From: Acidobacteriota bacterium
GTDB lineage: Bacteria; Acidobacteriota; Terriglobia; Bryobacterales; Bryobacteraceae
Assembly (NCBI GenBank): GCA_016178945.1
Contig: JACOSH010000231.1
Span: 1-38,796 of the forward strand
Direction of reading: 5' to 3'
Length of the DNA stretch: 38,796 nt
Positions 9,107 through 38,796 of the stretch are shown piece after piece. Both the position numbers and the translations under genes were made by a program. The notes below the pieces were generated by a model. It did not search any database. It saw only the letters and a list, made by a program, of their open reading frames with translations, and had not been told where the DNA came from. Positions within the stretch are counted from its first letter, which is position 1; each line of letters begins with the position of its first letter.

Positions 9107-12091
9107 TCAGAAGATGAAGTGGATGGCCAGCCGCGTGAAGCGCTCGCCCTGCCAGCCGTTGGCCAGCCCGAATCGCGGATCGACGCGCTTCTTCTGGACC
9201 TGCATCAAGGCCCTGTAATCGAAGCCCTTGAAGATATCGGCCTGCCTGGCGAACTGCAGGTTGCCGTCGCTCGAGTGGTTGTACCGCACGTAGCTGTTGG
9301 TGACGTTGCCCTGGTTAAACAGGTTGAACAGGTCGCCCTGCACGCGCACTCTTAGGCCTTCGCGAGCGCGCGGCAGCTTGAACTCGTGGCCGATCTGGAG
9401 ATCGGTATTGGTGTAGACCGGGGTTCGGCCCAGATCGCCGCGGCCGTTAACCAGGATCGGCAGACTGATGACGCCGGCCTCGGTGGAAAGCGGAGTGCCC
9501 GTGAAAGCCTGGAAGACCGGCGACAGGCTGGTGGAACCCACCCGGGACCTCAGGCTGTAGGAGCCGAACAGCTTGAAGGTGTGCGGCCGGTCGGTAGCCA
9601 GCAAGCCGTAAACCGGTTTGCCCCCGCCATCGTACTTCTCCCAGGGTAGATCGAAGTTGCGGTCCACGTTGGGAGAAGTCCGCCCGCCTTCATCCGAGCT
9701 GGCCAGGCCGCTGTAGTTGCCCCACAACCGGCTGTAGGTGTAGCTGGCCGCGTACATGAAGTTCCGCGAGAAGCGCTTGTCGCCGCGGATCTCTAACGCA
9801 TCGTAGTTCTGCACAGCGGCCGGAGAGGTGGGAAACCCGGCTGGGTAGTTCCTGGGATCGGCCGTCACGCCGTAACCCGGGTTGGCGATGAAGTACTGCT
9901 CCCCACGGGACGTCAGCAGGCCGGTGTCCTCGATGGCCCGGTCCAGCCGGTTGCGCGTGTAGCGCACCGAGAGCACCGTGGTCTCGGTCAGCCGGTAATC
10001 GGTGAGCAGGTTGTAGTAGTGCTTGCGCATCGGCGCCAGGTTCGGGTCGATGAGGTTATTGCCGGGATCGTTGGACGTGATGCGCCAATCGACCACCTCG
10101 AAGAGATTGCCCGGCGTGTTGGCCGGGGTGATCTTCAGGATGTCGGGATCGTCCAGCGGATAGACGAAATCCAGCCAGACGTCGCCGCCGAAGCTGCCGC
10201 GCGGCAGCTCGTACTTGAACTGATCGAACAGCCTCCCGTAGCCGGCCTTGAGCGTCCACCTGGCGTTGCCCAGAACATCCCAGGCGAAACCCAGCCGCGG
10301 CGCGAGCTTGTCGCCGAAGCCCCATTCGATGGCGCGCGACTTGGCGCCGTTGTCGGTGCGGAAGGAAGGCACGAATTCGCGGTCGAAGCGCACGCCCAGG
10401 TTCAAGGTCAGCCTCCGGTTGACCCTCCAGTTGTCCTGCAGGTAGAAGCCCTCGTTGTTGCTGCCCACATTGCCCTTGGTTCCGATGACGCGATTGATAT
10501 AGTAACCGTGCGGGCCCCGCATCGTGTCGGAACGAGTGACCCCGCTGTAGGTGAGGTTCCAATAGATCAGGAAATAGCCGTTCGGATAGCCCGTGAACAC
10601 GTCGTTGCTGAGCCGGTTGATCGAATATCCGGTCTTGAAATTGTGCTGCCCCCAACGGCTGAGCAGATAGTCCGCGTCCAGGTAGTGAACCTGCCGGTTC
10701 TGCTTGTCGAAGTTGGTCTGGTTGGTGCCCGGAGTGAAATTGCCCGTGGGCGCCTGGAGGTTCGCCGGCACGCCCGGCAGGCCGATGCTGGAGTTCTGGA
10801 AGCTGTAGAAAATGTTGGACGGGACGCCGTAGCTCTTGGTGTTGGTGTAGACGAAGCCCCCGTGATAGTTGACGACCAGCTTCGCCGTTGGCGTATAGGT
10901 GACCGACCAGCCGTAGGTGGCCGCCGGCGAGCGAGAGCCGAGTTGCGTCCAGGGAGTGGTCGAGCGGCTGGTGCCGTCCTGCGCCGGCAGGTTGCCGTTG
11001 GTTTTCGTGGGTGAATACAGGTAGCTGACAAAGCCCCGCAGCTTGGAGGTTGGCGCGTAGTCGAGCTTGCCGGTGAGATAGTCGCGCCGGCTTCGGGTCT
11101 CGAAATCCCGCGGCCTGTGGCTGGGATCGTCGAAGAAGGAGGTCACCCGCGTGGTCCTGGTGAACAGGGGCGACCAGCCTCCGAAGAACCAGGCCTTGTC
11201 CTTGACGATCCGGCCCCCCAGCGACAAGACCGGGCCGAGCGTGCGATAGGGATCGCGCGAGTTCTGAAAGTACTCAATCGAGTTTCGACTAGAGTCGGTC
11301 GGGACCAGCCGCAAGGTGGGGCGCGGCCGCGCCTGGAGCGCGTCGTTGTTGAAATACAGGCCCACCTGGCCGTGGAAGTCGTTGCCGCCGCTGCGGGTGA
11401 CCGCGTTGATCACCCCGCCCGTGGTGGCCGGGTATTGCGCCTCGAACCCGCTGCTCTTGACTTCGACCTCCTGCACGAACTCGTACGGGATGCTGGCGCT
11501 CCCGCCAAGCGCGCCGGTCCGGATACTGCTGCGCTCGACCCCGTCGATGATCCAGGAGTTCTCCGACCCGCTGGCCCCATCCACGGTGTACTGGCCGCTC
11601 TTGGGCTCGTTGCGCACGCCCGGCGCGAGTTGGATCAGACTGTCGAAGCTCCGGGACTTGGGCATGCGGTCGAAGAACTCCTGGGTCACGTTGATGGTCG
11701 CCGAACTGGCTGTGGTGTCGATCTGTACCGCGCTGGCCTGGATCACGACGCTCTCGGTCACCGCGCCCACCTCCAGCTTCAGGGTCAGCGAGGTGGTCCT
11801 GCCCACCGCGACTGTCACGCCGGCCTGCTTCAAGCCGCGGAAGCCCTGAGCCTGGACCCCGATGGTGTAGGTCCCCGGCGGCACCAGCGGAAACTGGAAT
11901 CCGCCCGAACTATCTGTGACGGCCGCGAGGGCGCGCACCAACGTGGGGCTCGCGATCTCCACGCGCGCGCCCGGAACCACCGCGCCCGACGGGTCGCTCA
12001 CAGAGCCCGAAAGGGTTCCGGTGGTTTCCTGCGCCACCCCCGCGCCCACCAGCAACCAAAGAATGGACACCCGAATCGACGAACGCAGCAT
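9107..12091 (-). CDS. TonB-dependent receptor with carboxypeptidase-regulatory-like N-terminus (receptor 2)
   Basis: 994 residues from the ATG at 12091, chosen because it opens a clean signal peptide (MLRSSIRVSILWLLVGAGVAQ) and has GGGGA 6 nt upstream. An upstream in-frame start would bury the signal. Residues ~22-105 are the carboxypeptidase-regulatory-like domain (TLSGSVSDPSGAVVPGARVE, then GGFQFPLVPPGTYTIGVQAQGF). The plug follows (FFDRMPKSRSFDSLIQLAPGV, IIDGVERS, PYEFVQEVEVKSSGFEAQYP), then a long barrel ending AIHFIF. It is somewhat shorter than the other three receptors and lacks the LPxNGR plug motif. It is transcribed divergently from a sialidase-like gene across 147 nt. Co-function in glycan use is plausible but unproven. 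Confidence 0.92.
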   Translation of the reverse strand: MLRSSIRVSILWLLVGAGVAQETTGTLSGSVSDPSGAVVPGARVEIASPTLVRALAAVTDSSGGFQFPLVPPGTYTIGVQAQGFRGLKQAGVTVAVGRTTSLTLKLEVGAVTESVVIQASAVQIDTTASSATINVTQEFFDRMPKSRSFDSLIQLAPGVRNEPKSGQYTVDGASGSENSWIIDGVERSSIRTGALGGSASIPYEFVQEVEVKSSGFEAQYPATTGGVINAVTRSGGNDFHGQVGLYFNNDALQARPRPTLRLVPTDSSRNSIEYFQNSRDPYRTLGPVLSLGGRIVKDKAWFFGGWSPLFTRTTRVTSFFDDPSHRPRDFETRSRRDYLTGKLDYAPTSKLRGFVSYLYSPTKTNGNLPAQDGTSRSTTPWTQLGSRSPAATYGWSVTYTPTAKLVVNYHGGFVYTNTKSYGVPSNIFYSFQNSSIGLPGVPANLQAPTGNFTPGTNQTNFDKQNRQVHYLDADYLLSRWGQHNFKTGYSINRLSNDVFTGYPNGYFLIYWNLTYSGVTRSDTMRGPHGYYINRVIGTKGNVGSNNEGFYLQDNWRVNRRLTLNLGVRFDREFVPSFRTDNGAKSRAIEWGFGDKLAPRLGFAWDVLGNARWTLKAGYGRLFDQFKYELPRGSFGGDVWLDFVYPLDDPDILKITPANTPGNLFEVVDWRITSNDPGNNLIDPNLAPMRKHYYNLLTDYRLTETTVLSVRYTRNRLDRAIEDTGLLTSRGEQYFIANPGYGVTADPRNYPAGFPTSPAAVQNYDALEIRGDKRFSRNFMYAASYTYSRLWGNYSGLASSDEGGRTSPNVDRNFDLPWEKYDGGGKPVYGLLATDRPHTFKLFGSYSLRSRVGSTSLSPVFQAFTGTPLSTEAGVISLPILVNGRGDLGRTPVYTNTDLQIGHEFKLPRAREGLRVRVQGDLFNLFNQGNVTNSYVRYNHSSDGNLQFARQADIFKGFDYRALMQVQKKRVDPRFGLANGWQGERFTRLAIHFIF

Positions 12092-13712: not shown

Positions 13713-16700
13713 TTACTGGGTCCGCTTGCGCGCGTCGTCCACCAGCGGACCGGGCATCTGGCCCTGCATGGAGAGGAACTTCCGGTACGATTCGCGAGCC
13801 GAGGGATTGGCGGCGCCCTCTTGCGCCCGTCCCAGATAATAGTAGACCGGCGGAAAGTACGAGTAGGTGGGAACGTCTTCGATGATCAGGAAGGCGGCCT
13901 CGCCGCGCCGCCCGAGGCAGATCTCGAATTCGGTGGCCGCCTTGGCGAACTCTCCTCCCGCCAGATACGCGCGACCCAGATTGAAGTGCCCGAACCAGGA
14001 ATCCACCTGTTTCAGCGACTCTTCAAACAGCGGCGCCGCGGCCTTGGGATCCTTACGCGCCAGCAGCAATTCGCCGCGCGCGATCCGCGCGCGAGCCTGG
14101 CCGGCCAGCTCGCTCTGCTGCTCGATGCGGGCGGCGAGCGCCTGCGCCTTGGGCTCCAGGCCGGCTTCCAGGTAGAGGTGCGCGCCGAGCAACAGCAGGT
14201 TGGCATCCTTGCTGTTGCCCACGGCCTGGTCGATGGCCTCCACGGCCTTTTCTTTCTGATCCACAGCCAGACGCGCGGTGGCCAGCAGGATCCACTTGGC
14301 GGCGGCGCCGCCGAGATTGCCGTTGGCTGCATCTCCGGCGGCCCCCTTTTCCAGAAGGGAGATCGCGTCGGCGGCGCGGCCTTGCGAGAGAGCCAGATCC
14401 CCCAACCCGATCGCGGCAGTTGAGATCCCCCAGGTTCCCGTGCCCTGCAAGCGCTTGTAGGTTTCGGCGGCCTGCGCATCCTGGCCCGACACCAGTTGCG
14501 CCAGGGCCATCGCCAGGAAAGCCTTTCCGTAATTTGGATTCAGTTTCAGCGCCTCTCGCGCTTCGCGCATGGCGGTTTCCAAATCGCCCGCCGCCAGGCC
14601 GAACAGCGCCAGGTTGTTCCGCTGGGCCACGTTCTTGGGATTCAGCTCCACCGCGGCGCGCCCCTCCTGCAACGCCTTGGAGAAGTTGCGCAGCGCGCCG
14701 TAGGAGACGGCCAGATTGGCGTGCCCGGCGGTATCGGCCGGGTAGCGCTCCACCAGAGCCGCGAACTCCTCGACGGCCTTGGCGAACTGCCCGTTGGTGA
14801 CGTAGTAGCTGCCGCGCGTGCGCAGTTTCTCCCGCTCGGTCATGCGATCGATCCGCTCCATGGCCATCTGGAAGTATTTCTCCGCGTCTTGGGGATGGCC
14901 CAGGTTGCGGTGAATCACGGCCAGGCCGGCGTAGGCGCGTCCGAAACCGGGATCGAGCTGGATGGCCTGGGTATAGTTGCGGAGCGCCTCTTCGAAGTTG
15001 CCGGCGTACTGCTTCTCCTGCGCGACGGCGTAGCTGTGCGCGGCTTCAATCGAGCTGGCCGTAAACGTCTCTCCGGCGCTGAGCTGCACGGATTCGGGCG
15101 TGGAGTCTCCCAGAATACGCCGCACCGGCGCGGCCAGCTTGGCCACCGAAGCCAGCACCGCGTCCCGGGTGGCCGATTCGGCCCGGTTCTCCGCCAGCAG
15201 ATGGCCGGTCACGGCATCGATCGCCTTGGTATTGAGCGCGTAGCCCTTGCCCTGTTTGTCGATCGAGCCGGCAAAGATCACGTCGTAGCCTTCCCGCACC
15301 GCCACCAGGCGGGCCAGCGATTCGTCCAGCCGGGTGGCGTTCGGCTGCACGCCCTGTCCCAGCTTGCGCGCCTGGTCCCGGTTGACCGACGTGATGAAAG
15401 GCGCCCCTTCCAGCGCCACGCTGAACATCGGCTCCAGCGTGCGGTCGAAGACCGGCTCGCCGCTTTTGTTGTCGAAGTCGGCGATCAAGATCCGGACGGG
15501 CTTCTGCCCGCCGGGCCGTGGCGCTTGGAACCGGTCGCGAAACACGTATCCAGCAAGGGCCAGCGCGACAACCGCGGCGCCGCAGCCGATCCACAGTCCC
15601 GTCCGGCTCTTCGGAGGCGCGACCAGGGCCTCGGTCGGCGGCGCTGCCATGGGCAGGGCCACACTCGCGGCTGGCCGGCTCATCGCGCCAATGCTGGATG
15701 GAGCGATACTGGGCGAACCGAGGCTGGGCGGAGCCAGGCCCGACCGGGCCAGGCTGGGCTGCGACCCGCTCGCCCCACTCGGCGCCCAGGCGGCCAGATC
15801 TTCCACGACTTCGCGCGTGCTTTGATATCGCTGCTCCGGGTCGGGCGCCAGGCACTTGACGATCACATCGCTCAGCCCTTGGGGGATGTTGGGATCCACC
15901 GTCACCGGAGGCGCCGCGCGCTCCCGTGTCCGCGCCACCAATGTCCCGACCACCGTGTCCGTCCGGAAGGGCACCTGACCGGTCAGCATCTCGTAGAAGA
16001 TCAGACCCACCGCGAAGATATCGGATCGCTGGTCGATCTTCTGGGCCAACGCCTGCTCGGGAGACATGTAGTCCGGCGTGCCCAGGATCGCGCCCGCGCG
16101 GGTCATGCCCTGCTGGTCCATCACGTGGGCCAGCCCGAAGTCCATCACCGCGACGCGGCCCTGCGGCTCGATCATGATGTTCTGCGGCTTCAGGTCCCGG
16201 TGGACCACTTTCTCCAGGTGGGCCGCCTCCAGCCCCAGACAGACCTGGCGGATGATGTCGGCCGCCTCGTGGTAGGTGAGTTTCTTCTCGTCGACCAGGT
16301 GCTTGAGGTCGCGCCCCTCGACGAACTCCATGGTGATGAACTTAAGCCCCTCGGTCACCCCCAGGTCGAAGATGCGGATCACGTTGCGGTGCGTGATCTG
16401 GCGCGCCACGATGAGCTCCTGCTTGAAACGCTCCAGAATATCCTTTTTGGAGGCCAGCTCGGGGCGGATGACCTTGATCGCCACAACTCGGTCGAGCTCG
16501 CGATCCACCGCCTTGTACACGGCCCCCATGCCGCCTTCCCCGAGCAGGCTCTGGATCTCGTATCGCTCCGCTAAGACGTCACCCGGTTCAAACGTGTGCC
16601 ACTCCACCGAGGGCGTGCGCGGGCCGCCGCTGGTGGAGCGGATCGCGCTGACCGGCGCCGGAGAGCGCGCCACGGACTGCGACCCCTCGTAGAGCGTGGG

Positions 16701-16784
16701 CTGGTCCGAGTCCCAGGACGAGTTGCACTTCGAACAGCGGACCGCCCCTTCCGGATTAACGGTTCGGCAGTGGGGACAAATCAC
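13713..16784 (-). CDS. Zinc-ribbon / Ser-Thr protein kinase / TolB-like / TPR membrane protein
   Basis: 1023 residues from a GTG start. A zinc ribbon opens the protein (C3, C6, C17, C20). The kinase domain spans ~75-335, with glycine loop GEGGMGAVY, K104 in VAIKV, HRDLKPQN (catalytic D197), DFG (D215) and GTPDYMSPEQ. All catalytic residues are present. A Ser/Pro/Ala-rich juxtamembrane linker (335-392) follows, then one membrane helix ~396-415. A region starting VRILIADFDNKSGEPVFDRTL looks like the FlgO/TolB-like domain of acidobacterial signalling proteins, and about ten TPR-like repeats follow to the C-terminus. The topology is kinase in the cytoplasm and TPRs outside. The target is unknown. 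No Shine-Dalgarno is seen. It lies downstream of a repeat block that separates it from the M24 peptidase gene. Confidence 0.9.
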   Translation of the reverse strand: MICPHCRTVNPEGAVRCSKCNSSWDSDQPTLYEGSQSVARSPAPVSAIRSTSGGPRTPSVEWHTFEPGDVLAERYEIQSLLGEGGMGAVYKAVDRELDRVVAIKVIRPELASKKDILERFKQELIVARQITHRNVIRIFDLGVTEGLKFITMEFVEGRDLKHLVDEKKLTYHEAADIIRQVCLGLEAAHLEKVVHRDLKPQNIMIEPQGRVAVMDFGLAHVMDQQGMTRAGAILGTPDYMSPEQALAQKIDQRSDIFAVGLIFYEMLTGQVPFRTDTVVGTLVARTRERAAPPVTVDPNIPQGLSDVIVKCLAPDPEQRYQSTREVVEDLAAWAPSGASGSQPSLARSGLAPPSLGSPSIAPSSIGAMSRPAASVALPMAAPPTEALVAPPKSRTGLWIGCGAAVVALALAGYVFRDRFQAPRPGGQKPVRILIADFDNKSGEPVFDRTLEPMFSVALEGAPFITSVNRDQARKLGQGVQPNATRLDESLARLVAVREGYDVIFAGSIDKQGKGYALNTKAIDAVTGHLLAENRAESATRDAVLASVAKLAAPVRRILGDSTPESVQLSAGETFTASSIEAAHSYAVAQEKQYAGNFEEALRNYTQAIQLDPGFGRAYAGLAVIHRNLGHPQDAEKYFQMAMERIDRMTEREKLRTRGSYYVTNGQFAKAVEEFAALVERYPADTAGHANLAVSYGALRNFSKALQEGRAAVELNPKNVAQRNNLALFGLAAGDLETAMREAREALKLNPNYGKAFLAMALAQLVSGQDAQAAETYKRLQGTGTWGISTAAIGLGDLALSQGRAADAISLLEKGAAGDAANGNLGGAAAKWILLATARLAVDQKEKAVEAIDQAVGNSKDANLLLLGAHLYLEAGLEPKAQALAARIEQQSELAGQARARIARGELLLARKDPKAAAPLFEESLKQVDSWFGHFNLGRAYLAGGEFAKAATEFEICLGRRGEAAFLIIEDVPTYSYFPPVYYYLGRAQEGAANPSARESYRKFLSMQGQMPGPLVDDARKRTQ

Positions 16785-20353: not shown

Positions 20354-20582
20354 GAAGCAGCTCAACATGAATGTCACTCCGGAGTTTGAACGGGACTTGA
20401 AGCACTTGATGGCCCGAAAGCGCATCCGCCAAAAGTCCGAGGCCATCCGGCTGGCCGTTCGGGAGGCCGCTCGCCGTGGCACGAGTTCTTCCTACGATTA
20501 CCGGGCGTGGCTCGGGCTGGCCTTGAAGGGGCCACTCAATCCGAGGCCAAAGTTCCGGAACGAGGACCAATTGTGGTCGTAG
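20352..20582 (+). CDS. vapB: Ribbon-helix-helix antitoxin (VapB-like)
   Basis: 76 residues. The N-terminus KQLNMNVTPEFERDLKHLMARKRIRQKSEAIRLAVREAARR is a short beta strand followed by two helices, the RHH DNA-binding fold that dimerises and binds the operator. The rest (TSSSYDYRAWLGLALKGPLNPRPKF) is the toxin-binding tail. The start is GTG at 20352; an ATG at 20367 is possible but has a weaker context. The start overlaps the operator palindrome and lies 7 nt from a TATACT box, which suggests leaderless translation. The toxin gene overlaps its end by 10 nt in another frame. Confidence in the antitoxin role is high because of the PIN-domain partner. Confidence 0.85.
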   Translation: MKQLNMNVTPEFERDLKHLMARKRIRQKSEAIRLAVREAARRGTSSSYDYRAWLGLALKGPLNPRPKFRNEDQLWS

Positions 20583-20953
20583 ACACATCCGCTCTCTTGG
20601 CGATTCTCTTTAACGAAGAGTCTGCGCCCTGGGTGGTAGATCAACTTCAGGGCAACGTCACACTCCGGATGAGCACGGTGAACTATGCGGAAGCGCTGAT
20701 TCTGGTGGAGGACCGGAGCCCGCACCGGCTTCAAGAGGTCCGGAAGGCGATCGAGGAATCCTCCATCCGGCTGGTCCCCCCCACCGCCGAGCACGCCGAG
20801 GTCGCGGCCGCGGCGCGGCTTCGCTACCCCATAAACTTGGGAGATTGCTTTGCGTACGCCCTGGCCAAAGAAGAGGACTGCCCGCTCCTGACTTTGGACC
20901 GGGCTTTCCGGCGGACTGACCTGACCGTAATCCTGCCGAGGCGAGGGGCCTGA
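20573..20953 (+). CDS. vapC: PIN-domain ribonuclease toxin (VapC-like)
   Basis: 126 residues starting at GTG 20573, inside the antitoxin gene, with GAGGA (20562-20566) 6 nt upstream. Longer versions extend in frame but add a non-family N-terminus. The acidic metal-binding set expected of PIN nucleases is visible: D4 (VVDTSALLAIL), E40 (NYAEAL), D91 (LGDCFAYALA) and D109 (LTLDRAF). PIN toxins cleave RNA, often tRNA or rRNA, when freed from antitoxin. The 10-nt overlap and internal RBS couple its translation to vapB. It converges with the next gene over an 18-nt gap. Confidence 0.9.
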   Translation: MVVDTSALLAILFNEESAPWVVDQLQGNVTLRMSTVNYAEALILVEDRSPHRLQEVRKAIEESSIRLVPPTAEHAEVAAAARLRYPINLGDCFAYALAKEEDCPLLTLDRAFRRTDLTVILPRRGA

Positions 20954-20971: not shown

Positions 20972-21841
20972 CTAGTTGCGCGAGACCTGGTCCTTGGGCA
21001 CCGACAGGTAGCCGACAATGAGGTCCTTCTTCACCTCGTTGACCACCAGCTCGTAAGGCTGCCGCGCCTTGGAGACGATGAACTGCACCGGCTCATTGAT
21101 GCTCTTGTCTTTCTTTTCAGTGCGCTTGTCGTCGGCGAACACTTCCACGGTGTACTTGTTCTTCTTGGGATCGGTCCGCTTCAGCAACAGCGTGACGTTG
21201 CCGACGCGCTGCGGATCCTTGGCCTTGCCGAGCTTGAACTCGAAGTAATCGCGCTCGCCGAGCCGCCGGAGCGCCGCCAGCTCCTTGCCGTTGGTGGCGA
21301 TCAATCCGCTCTGAACGCCCAGGTCGCCGGTGACGCGCTTCAAGTCGGAAATGGTCTTTTCCAATTCCGCCTTGGTGGAGGTCACCTCGCCCTTCACCGC
21401 CGTGACTTCCGTGCCCACCTCGCCGATCTTGGCGGTTGCGGTGCTGGCGACTTCCTTGACCTCGGAAATCTGGCCGGCCACCTGCTGCGCCTGCCGCCGT
21501 TGTTCCTCGGCAAGTTGCTTGGCGAGTTTGTCGGCGTGGGCCTCAGCCTCGGTCTTGGCAATGCCGGCCGCGCTGCTGGCCTGGCGGCGCGCATTTTCCA
21601 GTTCGGTCTTCAGCGTGTCGATGCTGCGGCGCGCCGTGGCCGTGGTGACCGTGGAAGCTTCGCGAATGTTCTGCAACTCCGACAGGACCGACTCGCGCAG
21701 CTTGTTGACATCGTTGCGCGTTTGATCGAGCTGGAGATACAGGTACACGTTGGCGCCAAGCAGCGCTATCACCGCCCCCACTCCTACCGCCGTCATGATG
21801 CCGGATGACCTGGATTCGCCGGGAATCTCTTGATCGCTCAC
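20972..21841 (-). CDS. Single-pass membrane coiled-coil protein, unknown function
   Basis: 289 residues from a GTG start with an ideal RBS (AAGGAGGA, about 7 nt). Residues ~15-37 form one membrane helix (MTAVGVGAVIALLGANVYLYLQL). About 38-205 form a long Ala/Glu/Lys-rich coiled coil, including repeated VGTEVTAVKGEVTSTKAEL-type segments. Residues ~206-289 are a compact beta-rich domain (YFEFKLGKAKDPQRVGNVTL, KNKYTVEVFADDKRTEKKDK). The short N-terminus is probably cytoplasmic and the coiled coil outside. I do not recognise a named family. It is divergent from the half-pseudokinase gene across 85 nt, so the two may be co-regulated. A role in envelope organisation or as a signalling stalk is speculation. 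Confidence 0.8.
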   Translation of the reverse strand: MSDQEIPGESRSSGIMTAVGVGAVIALLGANVYLYLQLDQTRNDVNKLRESVLSELQNIREASTVTTATARRSIDTLKTELENARRQASSAAGIAKTEAEAHADKLAKQLAEEQRRQAQQVAGQISEVKEVASTATAKIGEVGTEVTAVKGEVTSTKAELEKTISDLKRVTGDLGVQSGLIATNGKELAALRRLGERDYFEFKLGKAKDPQRVGNVTLLLKRTDPKKNKYTVEVFADDKRTEKKDKSINEPVQFIVSKARQPYELVVNEVKKDLIVGYLSVPKDQVSRN

Positions 21842-21926: not shown

Positions 21927-22604
21927 ATGAATTGCGGCAAATATCAGGTTCTGGATCTGATCCAGGACGGCGAAACCAAGAGCTACCGGGGGCGCGATCC
22001 CATCGCGGGCCGCGACGTGCTGGTGCATCTGCTGCCGCCGCAGGGAAGCTCGGAATTCACCGTGATCATGCGCTGCATGGGGTTGCTCTCCCCGCAGGCG
22101 GCCCGCATGATCCTGGATGAGGGCCACCAGGATGGCCGCCTGTACCTGGTCACCGAGATCACTCCGGGGTTTTCCAGCCTGGTGCGCTGGATGGAGGACC
22201 TGCTGATCCGCCCGCCGCAGGAGCCAGGGACGCCGGGCAAACCGGCACAACCTGGCCGGCCGGCGCCTGTGGCGGAATCCAAACCCAGCGGGAAACCGGC
22301 GATTGGCGACCTGACCCGGATGTTCAACCCCGCCGCGCGGACCCCGCCGGAGCCCGTTCCGGCCCCGGTGGCGGCGTCCAAGCCGGCGCCGGCCAAACCC
22401 GGCGCCGGCGAGCTCACCCGGATGTTTCAGACCCCTCCGATTCCTGACGCGCCGGCCGCGCCCAGGCGGCGGCCCGTCCTGCCGCCTCTTCCGCCCCCGG
22501 TATTCCAGCGCCGCAAACCAACCCTGCTGCCGATCCTGGGTGCGGCGATGCTCGGCGCGGCGGCGCTCGCCGCCTACATCTACTTTTTTTTCCTGAAAGG
22601 ATGA
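21927..22604 (+). CDS. Kinase N-lobe-only pseudokinase with LTRMF motifs and C-terminal membrane anchor
   Basis: 225 residues from the ATG at 21927. Residues 4-92 follow the layout of a Ser/Thr-kinase N-lobe: GKYQVLDLIQDGETKSYRGRD, then GRDVLVHLL, then DGRLYLVTEITPGFSSLVRWM, which mimics beta 1-3 and the hinge. The glycine loop is lost (QDGETKSY) and the beta-3 lysine is H34. No HRD, DFG or C-lobe follows, so it cannot be a kinase. A Pro/Ala-rich linker holds two near-identical motifs, GDLTRMF (127-133) and GELTRMF (161-167). A helix ~199-222 ends three residues from the C-terminus, as in tail-anchored proteins. The TGA overlaps an ATG of the Gfo/Idh gene. I infer a cytoplasmic adaptor fixed to the membrane; the partner is unknown. 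Confidence 0.75.
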   Translation: MNCGKYQVLDLIQDGETKSYRGRDPIAGRDVLVHLLPPQGSSEFTVIMRCMGLLSPQAARMILDEGHQDGRLYLVTEITPGFSSLVRWMEDLLIRPPQEPGTPGKPAQPGRPAPVAESKPSGKPAIGDLTRMFNPAARTPPEPVPAPVAASKPAPAKPGAGELTRMFQTPPIPDAPAAPRRRPVLPPLPPPVFQRRKPTLLPILGAAMLGAAALAAYIYFFFLKG

Positions 22605-22609
22605 TCCCC

Positions 22610-23812
22610 ATGGCTGATAGTTCCCTCCCCCGCCGGACCCTGCTGGGCGGCGCGGTCGCCTGGACCGCGGCTTCCTACTCGCGTATCCAGGGAGCCAACG
22701 ACCGCTTCCGGCTCGGCCTGATCGGCAGCGGCGATCGCGGCCGCTTCGTGATGTCGCAGTTTCAGGCCACCCGCCAGGTGGACGTGGCGGCGGTGTGCGA
22801 CATCTACGGCCAGCAGGTCGACCTGGCGCAGCAGAGGGCGCCGGGCGCCAAGGGCTTCACCGACCATCGCCGCCTGCTGGAAATGAAAGAGCTCGACGTG
22901 GCGCTGGTGGCAACGCCCGACCACTGGCATGCCCAGACCGCCATCGACGCCTTGAACGCCGGCAAGGATCTCTATGTCGAGAAGCCGCTGTCGCTGACCC
23001 TGGAAGAGGGCCCGCGCATCGTGAAGGCGGCGCGCGTCAACGAGCGCATCTGCCAGGTCGGCATGCAGCAGCGCTCCGGCAAGCATTACATCGAGGCCAA
23101 GCGCGAGTACATCGACTCCGGCAAGCTGGGCAAGATCACGCTGGCGCGCACCTGGTGGCACGGCAACAGCTATCATCTGCGGCGCGCTCCGGCCTCCTTG
23201 CAGACCCGACCCACCAACCTGGACTGGGGCCATTTCCTCGGGCCCGTCAAGTGGCGCGACTACGATCCGCAGCAGTATTTCAACTGGCGCGCCTACCTGG
23301 ACTTCGGCGGCGGCCAGGTGACCGACCTGTTCACTCACTGGATCGACGTGGTTCACATGTTCCTGGGGCAGGAGATTCCCCATTCCGCGGCGGCCGCCGG
23401 CGGCGTATATCACTACAAGGACGGCCGCACGGCGCCGGACACTATCCACGTGCTGTTGGAGTATCCCGCCGAGTTCACCGCCACATTCGAGGCCACGCTG
23501 GCGCCCGGCATCCGCGGCGCGGCGGTCGAGTTCTGCGGGACCAAGGGACGGCTCTACATCGACCGCTCGCGCTATGAGTTCCACGCCGCCGAGCGGAACG
23601 CCAAGCCGGTGATCGTGGAAGCGCCGCCGGGCGACATGACGCTCGATCACGTCCAGAACTTCCTGGACTGCGTGCGGTCGCGTAAGCTGCCCAACGGGGA
23701 CGTGCTCATCGGCCACCGCTCGGCCCAGGCTTCGCATCTGGGCAACATCGCCTACGTGCAGAAGCGCAGGCTGAACTTCGACACGGTCCGGGAAGAGATC
23801 CTGCCGCTCTAA
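22610..23812 (+). CDS. Gfo/Idh/MocA-family oxidoreductase, Tat-exported
   Basis: 400 residues. The Tat signal SLPRRTLLGGAVAWTAASY is followed by a Rossmann domain (RLGLIGSGDRGRFVM) and the family motif E124-K125-P126 (LYVEKPLS). The C-terminal alpha/beta domain includes WGHFLGPVKWRDYDP and DLFTHWIDVVHMF, with a possible catalytic histidine there. Such enzymes oxidise or epimerise sugars or inositols with tightly held NAD(P). Exported members are abundant in Acidobacteriota and Planctomycetota. I prefer the ATG at 22610, 9 nt after AAAGGA. The ATG at 22601 overlaps the previous stop (ATGA) but sits on the RBS. Either way the gene is coupled to the half-pseudokinase gene. The specific substrate is not predictable. 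Confidence 0.9.
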   Translation: MADSSLPRRTLLGGAVAWTAASYSRIQGANDRFRLGLIGSGDRGRFVMSQFQATRQVDVAAVCDIYGQQVDLAQQRAPGAKGFTDHRRLLEMKELDVALVATPDHWHAQTAIDALNAGKDLYVEKPLSLTLEEGPRIVKAARVNERICQVGMQQRSGKHYIEAKREYIDSGKLGKITLARTWWHGNSYHLRRAPASLQTRPTNLDWGHFLGPVKWRDYDPQQYFNWRAYLDFGGGQVTDLFTHWIDVVHMFLGQEIPHSAAAAGGVYHYKDGRTAPDTIHVLLEYPAEFTATFEATLAPGIRGAAVEFCGTKGRLYIDRSRYEFHAAERNAKPVIVEAPPGDMTLDHVQNFLDCVRSRKLPNGDVLIGHRSAQASHLGNIAYVQKRRLNFDTVREEILPL

Positions 23813-25161: not shown

Positions 25162-26586
25162 TCAAAACATCTGCCACCATTTCCGCGGCCCGGCGAAGCC
25201 TTCCAGAATCCAGATGTCCTCGCGCGCGACTCCCACCGCCGTGACGAAGCGCTTGCCATCGGGGTGGAGGCTGAAATTGGTGATCTGGCTGGGGCGAGGC
25301 AGGCCGGTGTCGCCTACGTCGCGCTCCTCCCCCGTCCGGACGTCGATGCGCACCAGTTTCCAGCCGCCCCCCGGCGTCCGACGCAGGCCCAGGATCTGGC
25401 GGCTGTCCTTCGAGAAGCCAAACACTGTGGGCACGGTCTTGGTCAGCAGACGCGAGAAGTCCGGTGAGACGAGGTGAATGCCGAGGTTGTCGCTGAAGGC
25501 GATCGCATCGCCGGAGGGTGCCCAGACGACATTCCCGCCGCCGCCACCCAGCCCCTCCTCCACGGCCAGCGTCATTGGCTTGCCGCCGCCACCCGATGGG
25601 GCTTTGGCCACTTCCCATTTTCCGCCTACCTGACGCCGATATGCGATCCAATTGCCGTCGGGCGACCAGGCCACTGTGTGCTGATCGTTGGACTCGGTTT
25701 CCAGCCGCACCGGTTGGCCTCCCGCCACCGTCGAGATTTGGATCGTATGACCCAAGCCGCCGTACAGTTCGAACGCGATGCGCTGCCCGTCGGGCGAGAA
25801 ACGCGGGCGCCGGTGGTTCACGATGGCGGTCCGCCGATGGTCCAGCAGGGGGCGATCCCAGCCGCCCTGGACGCGGCGGATCCAGATCTCTTCACCCCAG
25901 CCGGCGGAGTCCTTGGTGTAGGCGACCTGAGCGCCGTCCGGTGACCAGTCCGGGTTCTCTTCGCTGAAGGAAGTGGAGAGAAGGACTCTGGGAGGAGCGC
26001 CGTTCAGCGGCACTTCGACGAGATCGAAATCCGTGCGGCCCGAGGTGAAGGCGATACGCCCTCCGTCGGGTGACGCCGCCGGTGAGTGATCGTCCGAGAC
26101 GCCGGCCGTGAGCGGCCAGAACCGCCCGGTCCCAATCTCGGCCATATAGAGATGGTTGCCGGCGACGCCCGCTGTCGATCCGGAAAGCAGTACGTGGCGT
26201 CCGTCGGGCATCCAGCGAAAGGCGGCGCCGCCGATTCCGCGTCCAGCGTTCCAGCCGGCCAGCCCGCGCTGCGGCTGGCCGCCGTCGAGGGGAAGCAGCC
26301 AGAAATCGGGTCGCTCCGCATCACTCGCGCCCAGGAAAACACCTAGCGTCGACCGTCTTGGTGCAAACTGAATTTGACTCACAACCCACACTGGCGCGCG
26401 AAACGGACCCAACGAATATCGCTCTTCCTTACCATCCGCCATCGACCGCAGCCAAATGGTCACGTCGCCGGTGTTTCCCTTGGAGTACACCAGCGTCTTG
26501 CCGTCGGAAGAAATGGCGGCCCCGCGTGCCTCGTTCACTACGATTTGCGGGACGCCTCCCGCGGCGCCCACGGCCCACACTTTTCC
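25162..26586 (-). pseudogene. TolB/WD40-type propeller half of a frameshifted kinase gene
   Basis: This frame supplies the C-terminal ~474 residues that belong after the kinase encoded at 26538-27659. It starts GKVWAVGAAGGVPQIVVNEA and ends PRKWWQMF. At least eight PDG-type blade motifs are visible, for example SPAASPDGGRIAFTS, NPDWSPDGAQVAYT, RPRFSPDGQRIAFEL and TVAWSPDGNWIAYR. These are typical TolB/PD40 propeller repeats. Together with two or three in the kinase frame this makes roughly eleven, so two propellers or one large one. One added base in the run of four T at 26581-26584 would restore a single ~831-residue protein. The open frame upstream of 26586 is not family-like. Either a recent mutation or a sequencing indel explains it. 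Confidence 0.75.
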
Positions 26587-27659
26587 GCGGCCACGTAATA
26601 GATCCGCGACGCGTCCGGCGACCAGAAGGGTTGAGAGCAGTTGACGGGGGATTGGGTGATCTGCGCCGCGGCGTTGGATGTCAGGCTGCGCGTGAAGACC
26701 TGCATGACGCCGTTCACTTCCCGGAGATACGCCAGGGCCCTGCCGTCGGGCGACCAGGCGGGCGCACGCTCGGCTTCGGCATCGGTCGCCACCGGAGTGA
26801 ACTTGGGAACCGGCGTATCGCCGGCCGGCCGGTCGCGCAGGCTGCGCAGGTCGAAGTAGAGATCTGTCGTCGCGCCGTACCGCTGGTCGGCCTCCTTCGC
26901 CAGACACCTCTCCACAACCCAGCTCAGCGGCTCCGGGACCTTCGAGTCCACTCTCGCTAGTGGCGGTACCTCTTCCTGGAGGAGTGCGGCCAGCGTCTCC
27001 ATCGCTCCCGCTCGGTGGAAGACCCGCTGGCCCGTCGCCATCTCGTGCATCAAGAGACCGAAGGAGAACTGATCGGTGCGGAAATCGACTGTCTCCCCGC
27101 GGGCCTGCTCCGGACTCATATACGCAAACGTCCCCAGGATCACGCCGGCCTCGGTTTGGGTGGTGAGCTCGGAGCCGGCCACCGAGACCGGATGGGGCTT
27201 GGCCAGCCCGAAATCCAGGATCTTGGCGCGGCCGCCGGCGGCGACCAGGATGTTCTCCGGCTTGATGTCCCGGTGCACAATGCCCGCCTGATGAGCCGCC
27301 GCCAGACCATCGGCGATCTGAGCCGCCAAGTCGAGCAGCCTCTTCAGCGGAACTGGCCCGCGGCCCAGGATGTCGCGCAGCGATTCGCCTTCGACCAACT
27401 CGGAGACGATGTACGGGGAGCCATCCGCATCGCCGACGTCGTAAACAGCGACGATGTTGGGATGGTTCAGCGCGCCGGCGGCGCGGGCCTCGGTCTCGAA
27501 CCGGCGGCGGCGCTCGAGATCTCCGACCGCTTGCGGCAGCAGCACCTTGATGGCGACTTCCCGGCCCAGACGCGTGTCGCGACCGCGGTAGACCTCGCCC
27601 ATACCTCCGGCGCCGATCCGGGAAAGGACTTCATAAGGGCCCAGGCGGCTCGGCAACAC
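26538..27659 (-). CDS. Ser/Thr protein kinase with start of a propeller, truncated by frameshift
   Basis: 373 codons. The kinase domain (~8-270) is intact: GAGGMGEVY loop, K38 (VAIKVLL), HRDIKPEN, DFGLAKPHP and GTFAYMSPEQARG. The C-lobe contains CLAKEADQRYG. Two propeller motifs follow (APAWSPDGRALAYL, QPFWSPDASRIYYVAAE). Then the frame slips into KCGPWAPREASRKS and stops. No membrane helix separates kinase and propeller, unlike many acidobacterial relatives, so the intact protein would be cytoplasmic. The GTG start at 27659 gives the typical MLPSRLGPYEVLSRIG beginning and lies 6 nt after TATGCT with no Shine-Dalgarno. Kinase activity could persist in the truncated product. The propeller half is listed separately. 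Confidence 0.82.
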   Translation of the reverse strand: MLPSRLGPYEVLSRIGAGGMGEVYRGRDTRLGREVAIKVLLPQAVGDLERRRRFETEARAAGALNHPNIVAVYDVGDADGSPYIVSELVEGESLRDILGRGPVPLKRLLDLAAQIADGLAAAHQAGIVHRDIKPENILVAAGGRAKILDFGLAKPHPVSVAGSELTTQTEAGVILGTFAYMSPEQARGETVDFRTDQFSFGLLMHEMATGQRVFHRAGAMETLAALLQEEVPPLARVDSKVPEPLSWVVERCLAKEADQRYGATTDLYFDLRSLRDRPAGDTPVPKFTPVATDAEAERAPAWSPDGRALAYLREVNGVMQVFTRSLTSNAAAQITQSPVNCSQPFWSPDASRIYYVAAEKCGPWAPREASRKS

Positions 27660-36411: not shown

Positions 36412-36425
36412 ATAAGTGCACTTAT
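36412..36425 (-). promoter_or_regulatory. 14-bp perfect palindrome, antitoxin operator
   Basis: ATAAGTGCACTTAT lies 12 nt upstream of the antitoxin ATG. Its outer part gives TATAAG on the minus strand, a possible -10, so an RHH dimer bound here would repress its own operon. Confidence 0.55.
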
Positions 36426-36465
36426 ACGATACCACGACCGGCGCACGCATCTGCCTGTCCCGTAC

Positions 36466-36471
36466 TATACT
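36466..36471 (+). promoter_or_regulatory. -10 box upstream of the right-hand kinase gene
   Basis: TATACT, preceded by GTAC, lies 31 nt before the ATG at 36503. No convincing -35 is seen. GGGGAGG at 36473-36479 is too far from the ATG to be its RBS. Confidence 0.3.
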
Positions 36472-36502
36472 GGGGAGGCCACACGGAAATGGCGGCCCGG
36501 CG

Positions 36503-38796
36503 ATGATCGGAGAAACAGTTTCGCGATACCGCATTCTTCAGAAAATCGGAGAAGGCGGCATGGGCGTGGTCTACGAAGCGGAAGACACAACACTGGGCCG
36601 GCGCGTCGCGGTCAAGTTCGCGACCCATCCCGATGCCGAGCGCTTCCTGCGCGAGGCGCGCGCCGCCTCCGCGCTCACCCATCCGCACATCGCCGGGATC
36701 TACGATTTTGGGAACGGACCCGGCGGCCGGGCCTTCCTGGTGATGGAGCTGGTCCGCGGACCGGCGCTGAATGATTTGATCAAAGAAGGCGCGCTGTCCC
36801 TTCCCCGCAGCCTGGAGATCGTCTCGGAGACGGCCGAGGCGCTGGCCGAGGCGCACCGGCTGGGTTTCGTGCACCGCGACATCAAGCCCTCCAACATCCG
36901 GCTGAACGAGCGCGGCGAGGTCAAGGTCCTGGATTTCGGGCTGGCGAAACAGGTCCAGGGGGCCGGCGCCTCGGCCGCCGCGACCGCTTCGGGCACGCTG
37001 ATTGGAACGCCGCACTACATGTCGCCGGAGCAGGCCCGCAACGGCGAAGTGGACGCGCGCAGCGATCTGTTCTCGCTGGGCTGCGTGCTCTACGAGTGCG
37101 TCACCGGGCATCGGCCCTTCCCTTCGGACAATGCGCTGGAGGCGGTATCCCAGGTGCTGCTAGTGGACCCTCCGGCGCCGTCGCGGGCGCGCCCGGGCCT
37201 GCCCGAGGAGCTGGACCGCATCACCCTGAAAGCCCTGGCCAAGAAGCCGGAGATGCGCTACCAGTCCGCCGCGGAGCTGGGGGCCGATCTGGCGGCGCTG
37301 CGGCCCGCCCTGATCGAGACGGGCTCGGCGCCGACCGTTACCACGCTGCGCCCCGAACCGGCGAAGCCGCGGTTTTCCGCAATGAAAAGGCTGGCGCTGG
37401 CGGCGGTCGCGCTGGCCTGCATTCTGGCAGCATGGGTGCTGTGGCCGAGCCGGGCGCGCGCGCCCTCCGGCGAGGCGCTGCGCTGGTACCGGGAAGGGGC
37501 CGGCGCGATTCGGGATGGCGCCTATCATCGCGCCAGCCGCTCCTTGGAGCGCGCCGTCCTGCTCGACCCGGATTTCACGATGGCGCACGCGCGGCTGGCC
37601 GAGACTTGGGCCGAGCTGGGCTACTCCGAGAAAGCCGGCCAGGAGATGCTGCTGGCCCTTCCCGGCGGTTCCCGCCGCGCGGCGCTCAGCGGCTGGGAGA
37701 CCACGCACGTTGAAGCCATCCGCTCGACGCTGACCCGCGATTTCGCGGCCGCGGCCCAGCGCTACGTCGAGCTGACCCGCGCCGCGCCGGACGCCGGGAA
37801 AGCGGCCCTGTACGTGGATCTCGGACGGATCCAGGAAAAAAACAACGAAGTCGAGAAGGCCATGGCCAGCTATCGGGAAGCGGCGCGCTGCGATCCGCAG
37901 TCGGCCGCCGCTTTCCTGCGCCTGGCCATCCTGCATGGCCGCCGCCAGAGCTTGGAGGAAGCCGCCGCCGCGTTCAACGCCGCCGAGACGCTCTATCAGG
38001 CCGCCAGCAACCTGGAGGGCGTCACCGAAGTCTTCTATCAGCGCGGCGTCCTGGCTCACAAGTTGCGGCGGGTCGGAGAGGCGCGCTCGGCTCTGGAGAA
38101 AGCCCTGGACCTGGCGCGGGCCAATTCCAGCGAATACCAGCAGGTCCGTGCCCGGTCGCTGCTCAGCTCGGTCGCCTATCTGGAAGGGGATTCTGCCTCC
38201 GCCGAGAAACTCGCCACTACGGCCATCGACCAGGCCCGCCGCGCCGGGATCGCCAATCTGGCGGCGAACGGCCTGATCGACCTGGGCAGCGCCCTGATGT
38301 ATGCGGGCGATCCGGGCCGCGCCGAGTCCTACTACAAGGACGCGGTCGAATTCGCCCGCCGGTCCAGCCTGCGCCGCAGCGAGGCCGCCGCCCTGTTCAA
38401 TCTGGCCGACCTGCACATCCGGCAGGGCAAGCGAAGCCAGGGCGTGGCGGAGGCCGAGCAGGCGCGAACGCTGTTCGAGCAGGGAGGCTTTCGCCAGGAA
38501 GTCGCCCTGGTTCTTTACCTGATCGGACGCGCGCAGCGGCAGGAAGGGCGCTACGAGGCGGCGCTAAAGACGTTTCAGGATCATCTCCAGTTTGCCGAGC
38601 GCACCGGGGACGCCGGACAGCGAGCTCAGGCCTACGAAGGCATCGCCGGCGTGCTGCTTCGCCTGGAGCGCTATCCGGAGGCGCTCGAATACTACGAGAA
38701 AACGCACGCCGCCGGCAAGGCGCTGGGCAATCAGGTTACGGTCGGCTATAGCCTGATGAATCGCGCCGCGGTGTTGTGGAGGCTGGGGCGTTACGA
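36503..38796 (+). CDS. Ser/Thr protein kinase with membrane helix and TPR domain, 3'-truncated by window edge
   Basis: At least 764 residues, running open to the right edge. It starts MIGETVSRYRILQKIGEGGM followed by GVVYEAED. The kinase domain (~8-270) has K38 (VAVKFA), HRDIKPSNI, DFGLAKQ and GTPHYMSPEQARNG, all catalytic residues intact. A linker leads to one membrane helix at ~296-314 (LALAAVALACILAAWVLW). A long extracytoplasmic array of TPR-like repeats follows, for example AEKLATTAIDQARRAGIANL, SALMYAGDPGRAESYYKDAV and YEGIAGVLLRLERYPEALEY. The architecture matches the kinase at 13713-16784, but there is no zinc ribbon and the kinase-to-helix linker is short. It is divergent from the second toxin-antitoxin module. 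A role in sensing through the TPR region is inference. Confidence 0.9.
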   Translation, partial: MIGETVSRYRILQKIGEGGMGVVYEAEDTTLGRRVAVKFATHPDAERFLREARAASALTHPHIAGIYDFGNGPGGRAFLVMELVRGPALNDLIKEGALSLPRSLEIVSETAEALAEAHRLGFVHRDIKPSNIRLNERGEVKVLDFGLAKQVQGAGASAAATASGTLIGTPHYMSPEQARNGEVDARSDLFSLGCVLYECVTGHRPFPSDNALEAVSQVLLVDPPAPSRARPGLPEELDRITLKALAKKPEMRYQSAAELGADLAALRPALIETGSAPTVTTLRPEPAKPRFSAMKRLALAAVALACILAAWVLWPSRARAPSGEALRWYREGAGAIRDGAYHRASRSLERAVLLDPDFTMAHARLAETWAELGYSEKAGQEMLLALPGGSRRAALSGWETTHVEAIRSTLTRDFAAAAQRYVELTRAAPDAGKAALYVDLGRIQEKNNEVEKAMASYREAARCDPQSAAAFLRLAILHGRRQSLEEAAAAFNAAETLYQAASNLEGVTEVFYQRGVLAHKLRRVGEARSALEKALDLARANSSEYQQVRARSLLSSVAYLEGDSASAEKLATTAIDQARRAGIANLAANGLIDLGSALMYAGDPGRAESYYKDAVEFARRSSLRRSEAAALFNLADLHIRQGKRSQGVAEAEQARTLFEQGGFRQEVALVLYLIGRAQRQEGRYEAALKTFQDHLQFAERTGDAGQRAQAYEGIAGVLLRLERYPEALEYYEKTHAAGKALGNQVTVGYSLMNRAAVLWRLGRY

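Follow-up and report, generated by a model that had tools for sequence, protein, structure and literature searches.

A kinase N-lobe protein of an Acidobacteriota bacterium belongs to a GEFTRMF-array family linked to type VI secretion genes

The function of a protein that keeps only the first half of a kinase domain, followed by short threonine-centred repeats and a membrane helix, is the question raised by a 225-residue protein encoded in the window, the 38,796-nucleotide stretch of DNA analysed here. The original prediction cast it as a possible regulator of the genuine kinases in the same window, or as a docking platform. The evidence described below points instead to type VI secretion (T6SS), a toxin-injecting machine: the protein is probably a reduced orphan member of an inner-membrane T6SS scaffold family, the motif array of which would dock a shared T6SS client and aid assembly. 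Acidobacteriota are abundant in soil, and to our knowledge their T6SS has been little studied.

Architecture and neighbors of the window gene

The gene, its parts and its neighbors are as follows.

21927..22604, + strand: complete gene for the 225-aa protein (half-kinase, linker with the motifs, TM helix at the C-terminus); assigned as a reduced orphan to the T6SS-linked GEFTRMF-array family
21927..22208, + strand: kinase N-lobe, aa 1-94 (β1-3, αC, β4-5, hinge and αD), with His at the β-3 Lys position and without a C-lobe
22212..22523, + strand: Pro/Ala-rich linker, presumably disordered (aa 96-195 are 30% Pro)
22305..22325, + strand: motif copy 1, GDLTRMF
22407..22427, + strand: motif copy 2, GELTRMF
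22524..22601, + strand: hydrophobic (membrane) helix at the C-terminus by Kyte-Doolittle, then a short tail
22601..23812, + strand: Gfo/Idh/MocA oxidoreductase, downstream neighbor (Pfam)
20972-21841, - strand: divergent membrane coiled-coil gene (weak coiled-coil matches only in Pfam)
26538-27659: full kinase (Pfam)
13713-16784: full kinase (HRDLK motif)
36416-38796: full kinase (HRDLK motif)

Modeling bore out the N-lobe-only reading made earlier from the sequence. An AlphaFold2 model of aa 1-98, built with 60 relatives, had a pLDDT of 91.5 and the element order β1-β2-β3-αC-β4-β5-hinge-αD, and its top structural matches were all kinase N-lobes, including those of SRPK1 (Z 9.7), Mycobacterium tuberculosis PknB (1mru, Z 9.2) and Staphylococcus aureus Stk1 (E 1.7e-4). 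Searching the PDB with the family profile returned protein kinases only (best E 0.0014). The glycine loop is degraded and the β-3 lysine is replaced by His34, both as originally described. Pfam gave no match for the protein, PF00069 (Pkinase) included, and of the two-lobed catalytic domain with β-3 Lys, HRD and DFG that marks that family, the β-3 Lys and the C-lobe are missing. As far as the sequence tells, these two losses would leave the protein incapable of phosphotransfer.

The remaining features of the original description also held. GDLTRMF and GELTRMF are the sole two matches to the motif pattern across the 7.3-Mb genome (expected by chance in the window, 0.00), and the hydrophobic helix, which begins at about aa 200, has a Kyte-Doolittle mean of 2.04. 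GC content at the three codon positions of the open reading frame (0.70/0.54/0.82) is of the coding type, as in the neighboring genes. The stop codon runs into a possible start codon of the Gfo/Idh gene (ATG at 22601 or 22610); the coiled-coil gene is divergent, and the window holds three genuine kinases. No relative of the coiled-coil gene was found in any locus fetched.

The GEFTRMF-array family and its T6SS loci

Relatives were first sought in 150 related genomes. The long members found there, mostly 390-1012 aa, have the linker-plus-anchor design: they combine this N-lobe with numerous GEFTRMF copies (up to ∼18 in full members) in a Pro/Ala-rich linker and end in a TM helix. The window protein belongs to this family as a small member. 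It has an N-lobe of the family type, repeated G-[DE]-[FL]-T-R-[ML]-F motifs in its Pro-rich linker, both with Leu at -1, and the C-terminal helix; of the T6SS core genes, the remaining family trait, TssK, TssC and TssM are missing from its own genome, and the protein is therefore called an orphan member by virtue of descent. Its N-lobe matched a family HMM built without it at 2.8e-21 and, in a phylogenetic tree, fell within a clade of 61 array-type N-lobes with all sampled kinases outside (support 0.87); the tree does not single out any one kinase as the source of the N-lobe. Of 61 family members, 56 have His at the β-3 Lys position and not one has Lys. The family is undescribed in the databases searched: no Pfam or NCBIfam model matched the window protein or the full array members tested, and a search for GEFTRMF in the literature collection used gave nothing.

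Some members depart from the common plan. The array proteins of loci L058 and L153 have no kinase N-lobe; at their N-terminus is a short stretch that closes with GRW(K/R)VP, which other members carry between N-lobe and array. As these two arrays do without it, the half-kinase is dispensable in places. One array protein (L042:7938-10484, the same gene as in L029) carries a second tandem repeat, ALERGETLPPFKAP, in about six copies.

In relatives, mostly within Bryobacterales T6SS loci, the array gene lies divergent from tssK-tssL-tssM and near a second tssK, with tssB, tssC, hcp, tagJ, tssA, tssE and tssF further along. TssK, TssL, TssM, TssB and TssC were assigned by Pfam, and the other five were named by their place in the operon and by features of their sequences. 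A further collection, of 84,980 genomes and overlapping the first set, gave no match to the window protein alone as query; a family alignment brought out 73 array loci there, and within ∼10 kb of the array TssK was encoded in 63/73, TssM in 47/73, TssL in 45/73 and a Ser/Thr kinase in 25/73; about ten had no TssK in the fetched flanks. The same gene order is kept in a Gemmatimonadota genome (CP070815, L152). The array is also present in a T6SS+ isolate, strain KBS 96. In G063, a nearly complete genome, the array lies ∼1.8 Mb from the remaining T6SS genes.

Co-occurrence was examined in 61 genomes, with the window's own genome left out. The strict motif was present in 23 of 27 genomes with a canonical TssK versus 1 of 33 without (p = 1.6e-11, a value that shared ancestry makes only a guide). 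Two of the four genomes with TssK but no strict motif, G008 and G098, have arrays with other +1 residues. For a third, G017, its congener G084 encodes a full kinase (Pfam) upstream of tssL with GDATRLF in the linker; in G017 the contig ends inside the same gene, but the linker is still there, with GDATRFF. Some genomes first scored as array-negative later showed variant arrays or a motif-bearing kinase.

Two further regularities were observed in these loci. Array-type T6SS loci (L040-L158) have two distinct TssK genes flanking the array gene (e.g. L042:6545-7912 and 10692-12047), and genomes without a clear array mostly have one. Next after the array gene there is often one for a HemK/PrmC-like methyltransferase (e.g. 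L041:4134-5681 and L184:8191-9666), even in G063 with its distant array.

A motif shared with TssM and its possible readers

The original prediction had singled out LTRMF as a possible short binding or phosphorylation motif. A conserved, Thr-centred motif does exist, but its family form is GEFTRMF, of which LTRMF is a local variant. Neither outcome named beforehand as a refutation, a predicted structure unlike the kinase N-lobe or a TRMF motif lacking conservation in homologues, was observed. Among 35 proteins, each position being scored with the others fixed, conservation was G 98%, E 89%, F 92%, T 97%, R 83%, M 62% (L 17%) and F 94%, and Ser almost never replaced the Thr. The +1 residue varies freely in the G008 arrays (GEFTAMF, GEFTEMF and GEFTMMF), and the core is therefore taken as F/A-T-x-hydrophobic-F. 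Gln often follows the motif (GEFTRMFQ), for which a link with the HemK/PrmC-like methyltransferase is conceivable.

The cytoplasmic loop of TssM has this core as well, in the form ATx(φ)F: it was present in 37 of 39 non-redundant loops. In shuffled loops, ATx(φ)F occurred 0.12 times on average and at most 3 times, and about 0.6 was expected for T-x-(hydrophobic)-F. In TssM it is a single conserved ATx(I/M/V)F site within an otherwise variable cytoplasmic loop (e.g. the TssM gene at L042:12813-16307), and the Phe at +3 is invariant. The AT form found in TssM is present in turn in 58 of 89 array proteins, a set partly duplicated through overlapping fetches, mostly near the C-terminus; the window protein has no such site, and the motif is absent from the kinases beside tssM. 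The core held in common with TssM is the strongest clue to function, since it links the array with the T6SS membrane complex by a route that does not depend on gene order.

A scaffold model can be framed as follows. A membrane-anchored Ser/Thr kinase would have given rise to the full members by losing its C-lobe and keeping the N-lobe as a non-catalytic adaptor. Such descent from a T6SS kinase is suggested by the fold, by the common kinase-linker-TM plan and by the G084/G017 kinase with its one motif. The array would lie in a presumably cytoplasmic, disordered linker with the C-terminal helix as tether, and one cytosolic T6SS protein would read the T-x-(hydrophobic)-F core common to the array and the one TssM loop site. 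Many copies of this reader would thereby be gathered beside the TssL-TssM membrane complex, and the gathered copies may seed or regulate T6SS assembly. Docking and concentration of a common T6SS client are suggested by the disordered, multivalent and membrane-tethered anatomy together with the shared motif.

The family can be compared with several known systems. It resembles PknB-type membrane-anchored Ser/Thr kinases in its N-lobe fold, linker and single TM helix, but the C-lobe is absent and the β-3 Lys is His. Like pseudokinases, it has a kinase fold minus catalytic residues; known pseudokinases generally retain both lobes, whereas the C-lobe is absent from the family members examined. Also comparable are the Fha scaffolds and PpkA-type membrane kinases of the T6SS threonine phosphorylation pathway, likewise encoded with T6SS core genes and combining a membrane-anchored kinase fold with a cytoplasmic linker. 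In condensates at the inner membrane, PpkA and Fha recruit and concentrate T6SS components (PMC12607579), a likeness to the role proposed for the array. Unlike PpkA-type kinases, however, the family has no C-lobe, catalytic Lys or periplasmic domain and carries an array of short motifs instead. As a working analogy, MDC1 is likewise a disordered scaffold with several T-x-x-F copies, RNF8 and Pellino reading its repeated phospho-TQXF motifs through their FHA domains (PMC11884936); MDC1 is unrelated and eukaryotic, and the phosphorylation and FHA reading established there would be hypothetical for the array family. A conserved accessory protein sharing a short linear motif with TssM would offer a testable handle on T6SS assembly and control, and the family would represent a kinase cut to a single lobe and put to new use as a scaffold domain.

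A partnership with the window's own kinases, whether as regulator or as docking platform, would fit the kinase N-lobe fold and the presence of three kinases within 17 kb. These genomes are rich in kinases, however, and the constant neighbors of the homologues are tss genes rather than counterparts of the window's kinases, so that this reading is very improbable; the idea of a docking platform comes near the best explanation, with a T6SS component as the probable client. The strict Thr and the Phe at +3 fit phospho-Thr/FHA recognition, and the motif Thr could be phosphorylated by a T6SS Ser/Thr kinase, which the half-kinase might help to hold, and then be read by an FHA domain with a Phe-accepting +3 pocket. 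Thr conservation, the invariant +3 Phe in TssM, the kinase genes in about a third of array loci and the GDATRLF in the G084 kinase's own linker all agree with such a switch, and binding of Fha to phospho-Thr14 of TssL (PMC3953482) is a precedent, alongside the MDC1 motifs and the PpkA/Fha condensates. Against it, the kinases beside tssM lack the motif, and a regular-expression scan of the array loci yielded no FHA gene, so FHA recognition was kept as a rival and not taken as the lead. In G009 and G024 the sole FHA match per genome is an FHA-GAF-phosphatase-like protein found in other genomes too, and the FHA protein adjoining tssK in G063, encoded directly upstream of tssK_b (L186:2696-3934), is fused to DUF4123. 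Taken as a whole, the phospho-switch seems rather unlikely. As modes of recognition, direct docking to a core T6SS protein and phospho-Thr/FHA reading are about equally likely, because an FHA partner is not consistently found. More speculative, and in our view doubtful, is an unrecognized T6SS module in which the N-lobe-only kinase would be a membrane-tethered array of phospho-switchable T-x-(φ)-F motifs, also present in TssM, with kinase signaling setting the number of machine parts gathered at the membrane complex; it would be the bacterial counterpart of TQXF scaffolds.

Fate of the window copy

The window genome is 92% complete and encodes no TssK, TssC or TssM. From these three missing markers at that completeness, the T6SS appears to have been lost, and the two-copy protein looks like a relic or a repurposed orphan. 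That the gene is a decaying fossil of a T6SS locus, with no present function, is possible but not the reading we favor: it agrees with the missing markers, with an array reduced to two copies in which Leu replaces the -1 Phe in both, and with the lack of a TssM-form site. Yet the reading frame is intact with normal codon-position GC, as are the N-lobe, both motif cores and the TM helix, and an old pseudogene is disfavored because frame, motif cores and TM helix have survived. Under the scaffold reading, the orphan copy would be a record of what remains after T6SS loss.

The Gfo/Idh neighbor bears on the history of the locus. Seven array loci, drawn from six genomes since L042 and L114 represent one locus, have a 73-75% identical counterpart immediately beyond tssK_b, although the orientation in the window differs from that in the T6SS loci, and the window genome itself has a second copy (72%). 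The gene is not thought to work with the scaffold and is read as a trace of locus history, and the window locus as a whole is suggestive of the remainder after T6SS loss. Upstream of the coiled-coil gene, a small open reading frame at 20507-20953 resembles, by eye only, a PIN-domain (VapC-like) protein.
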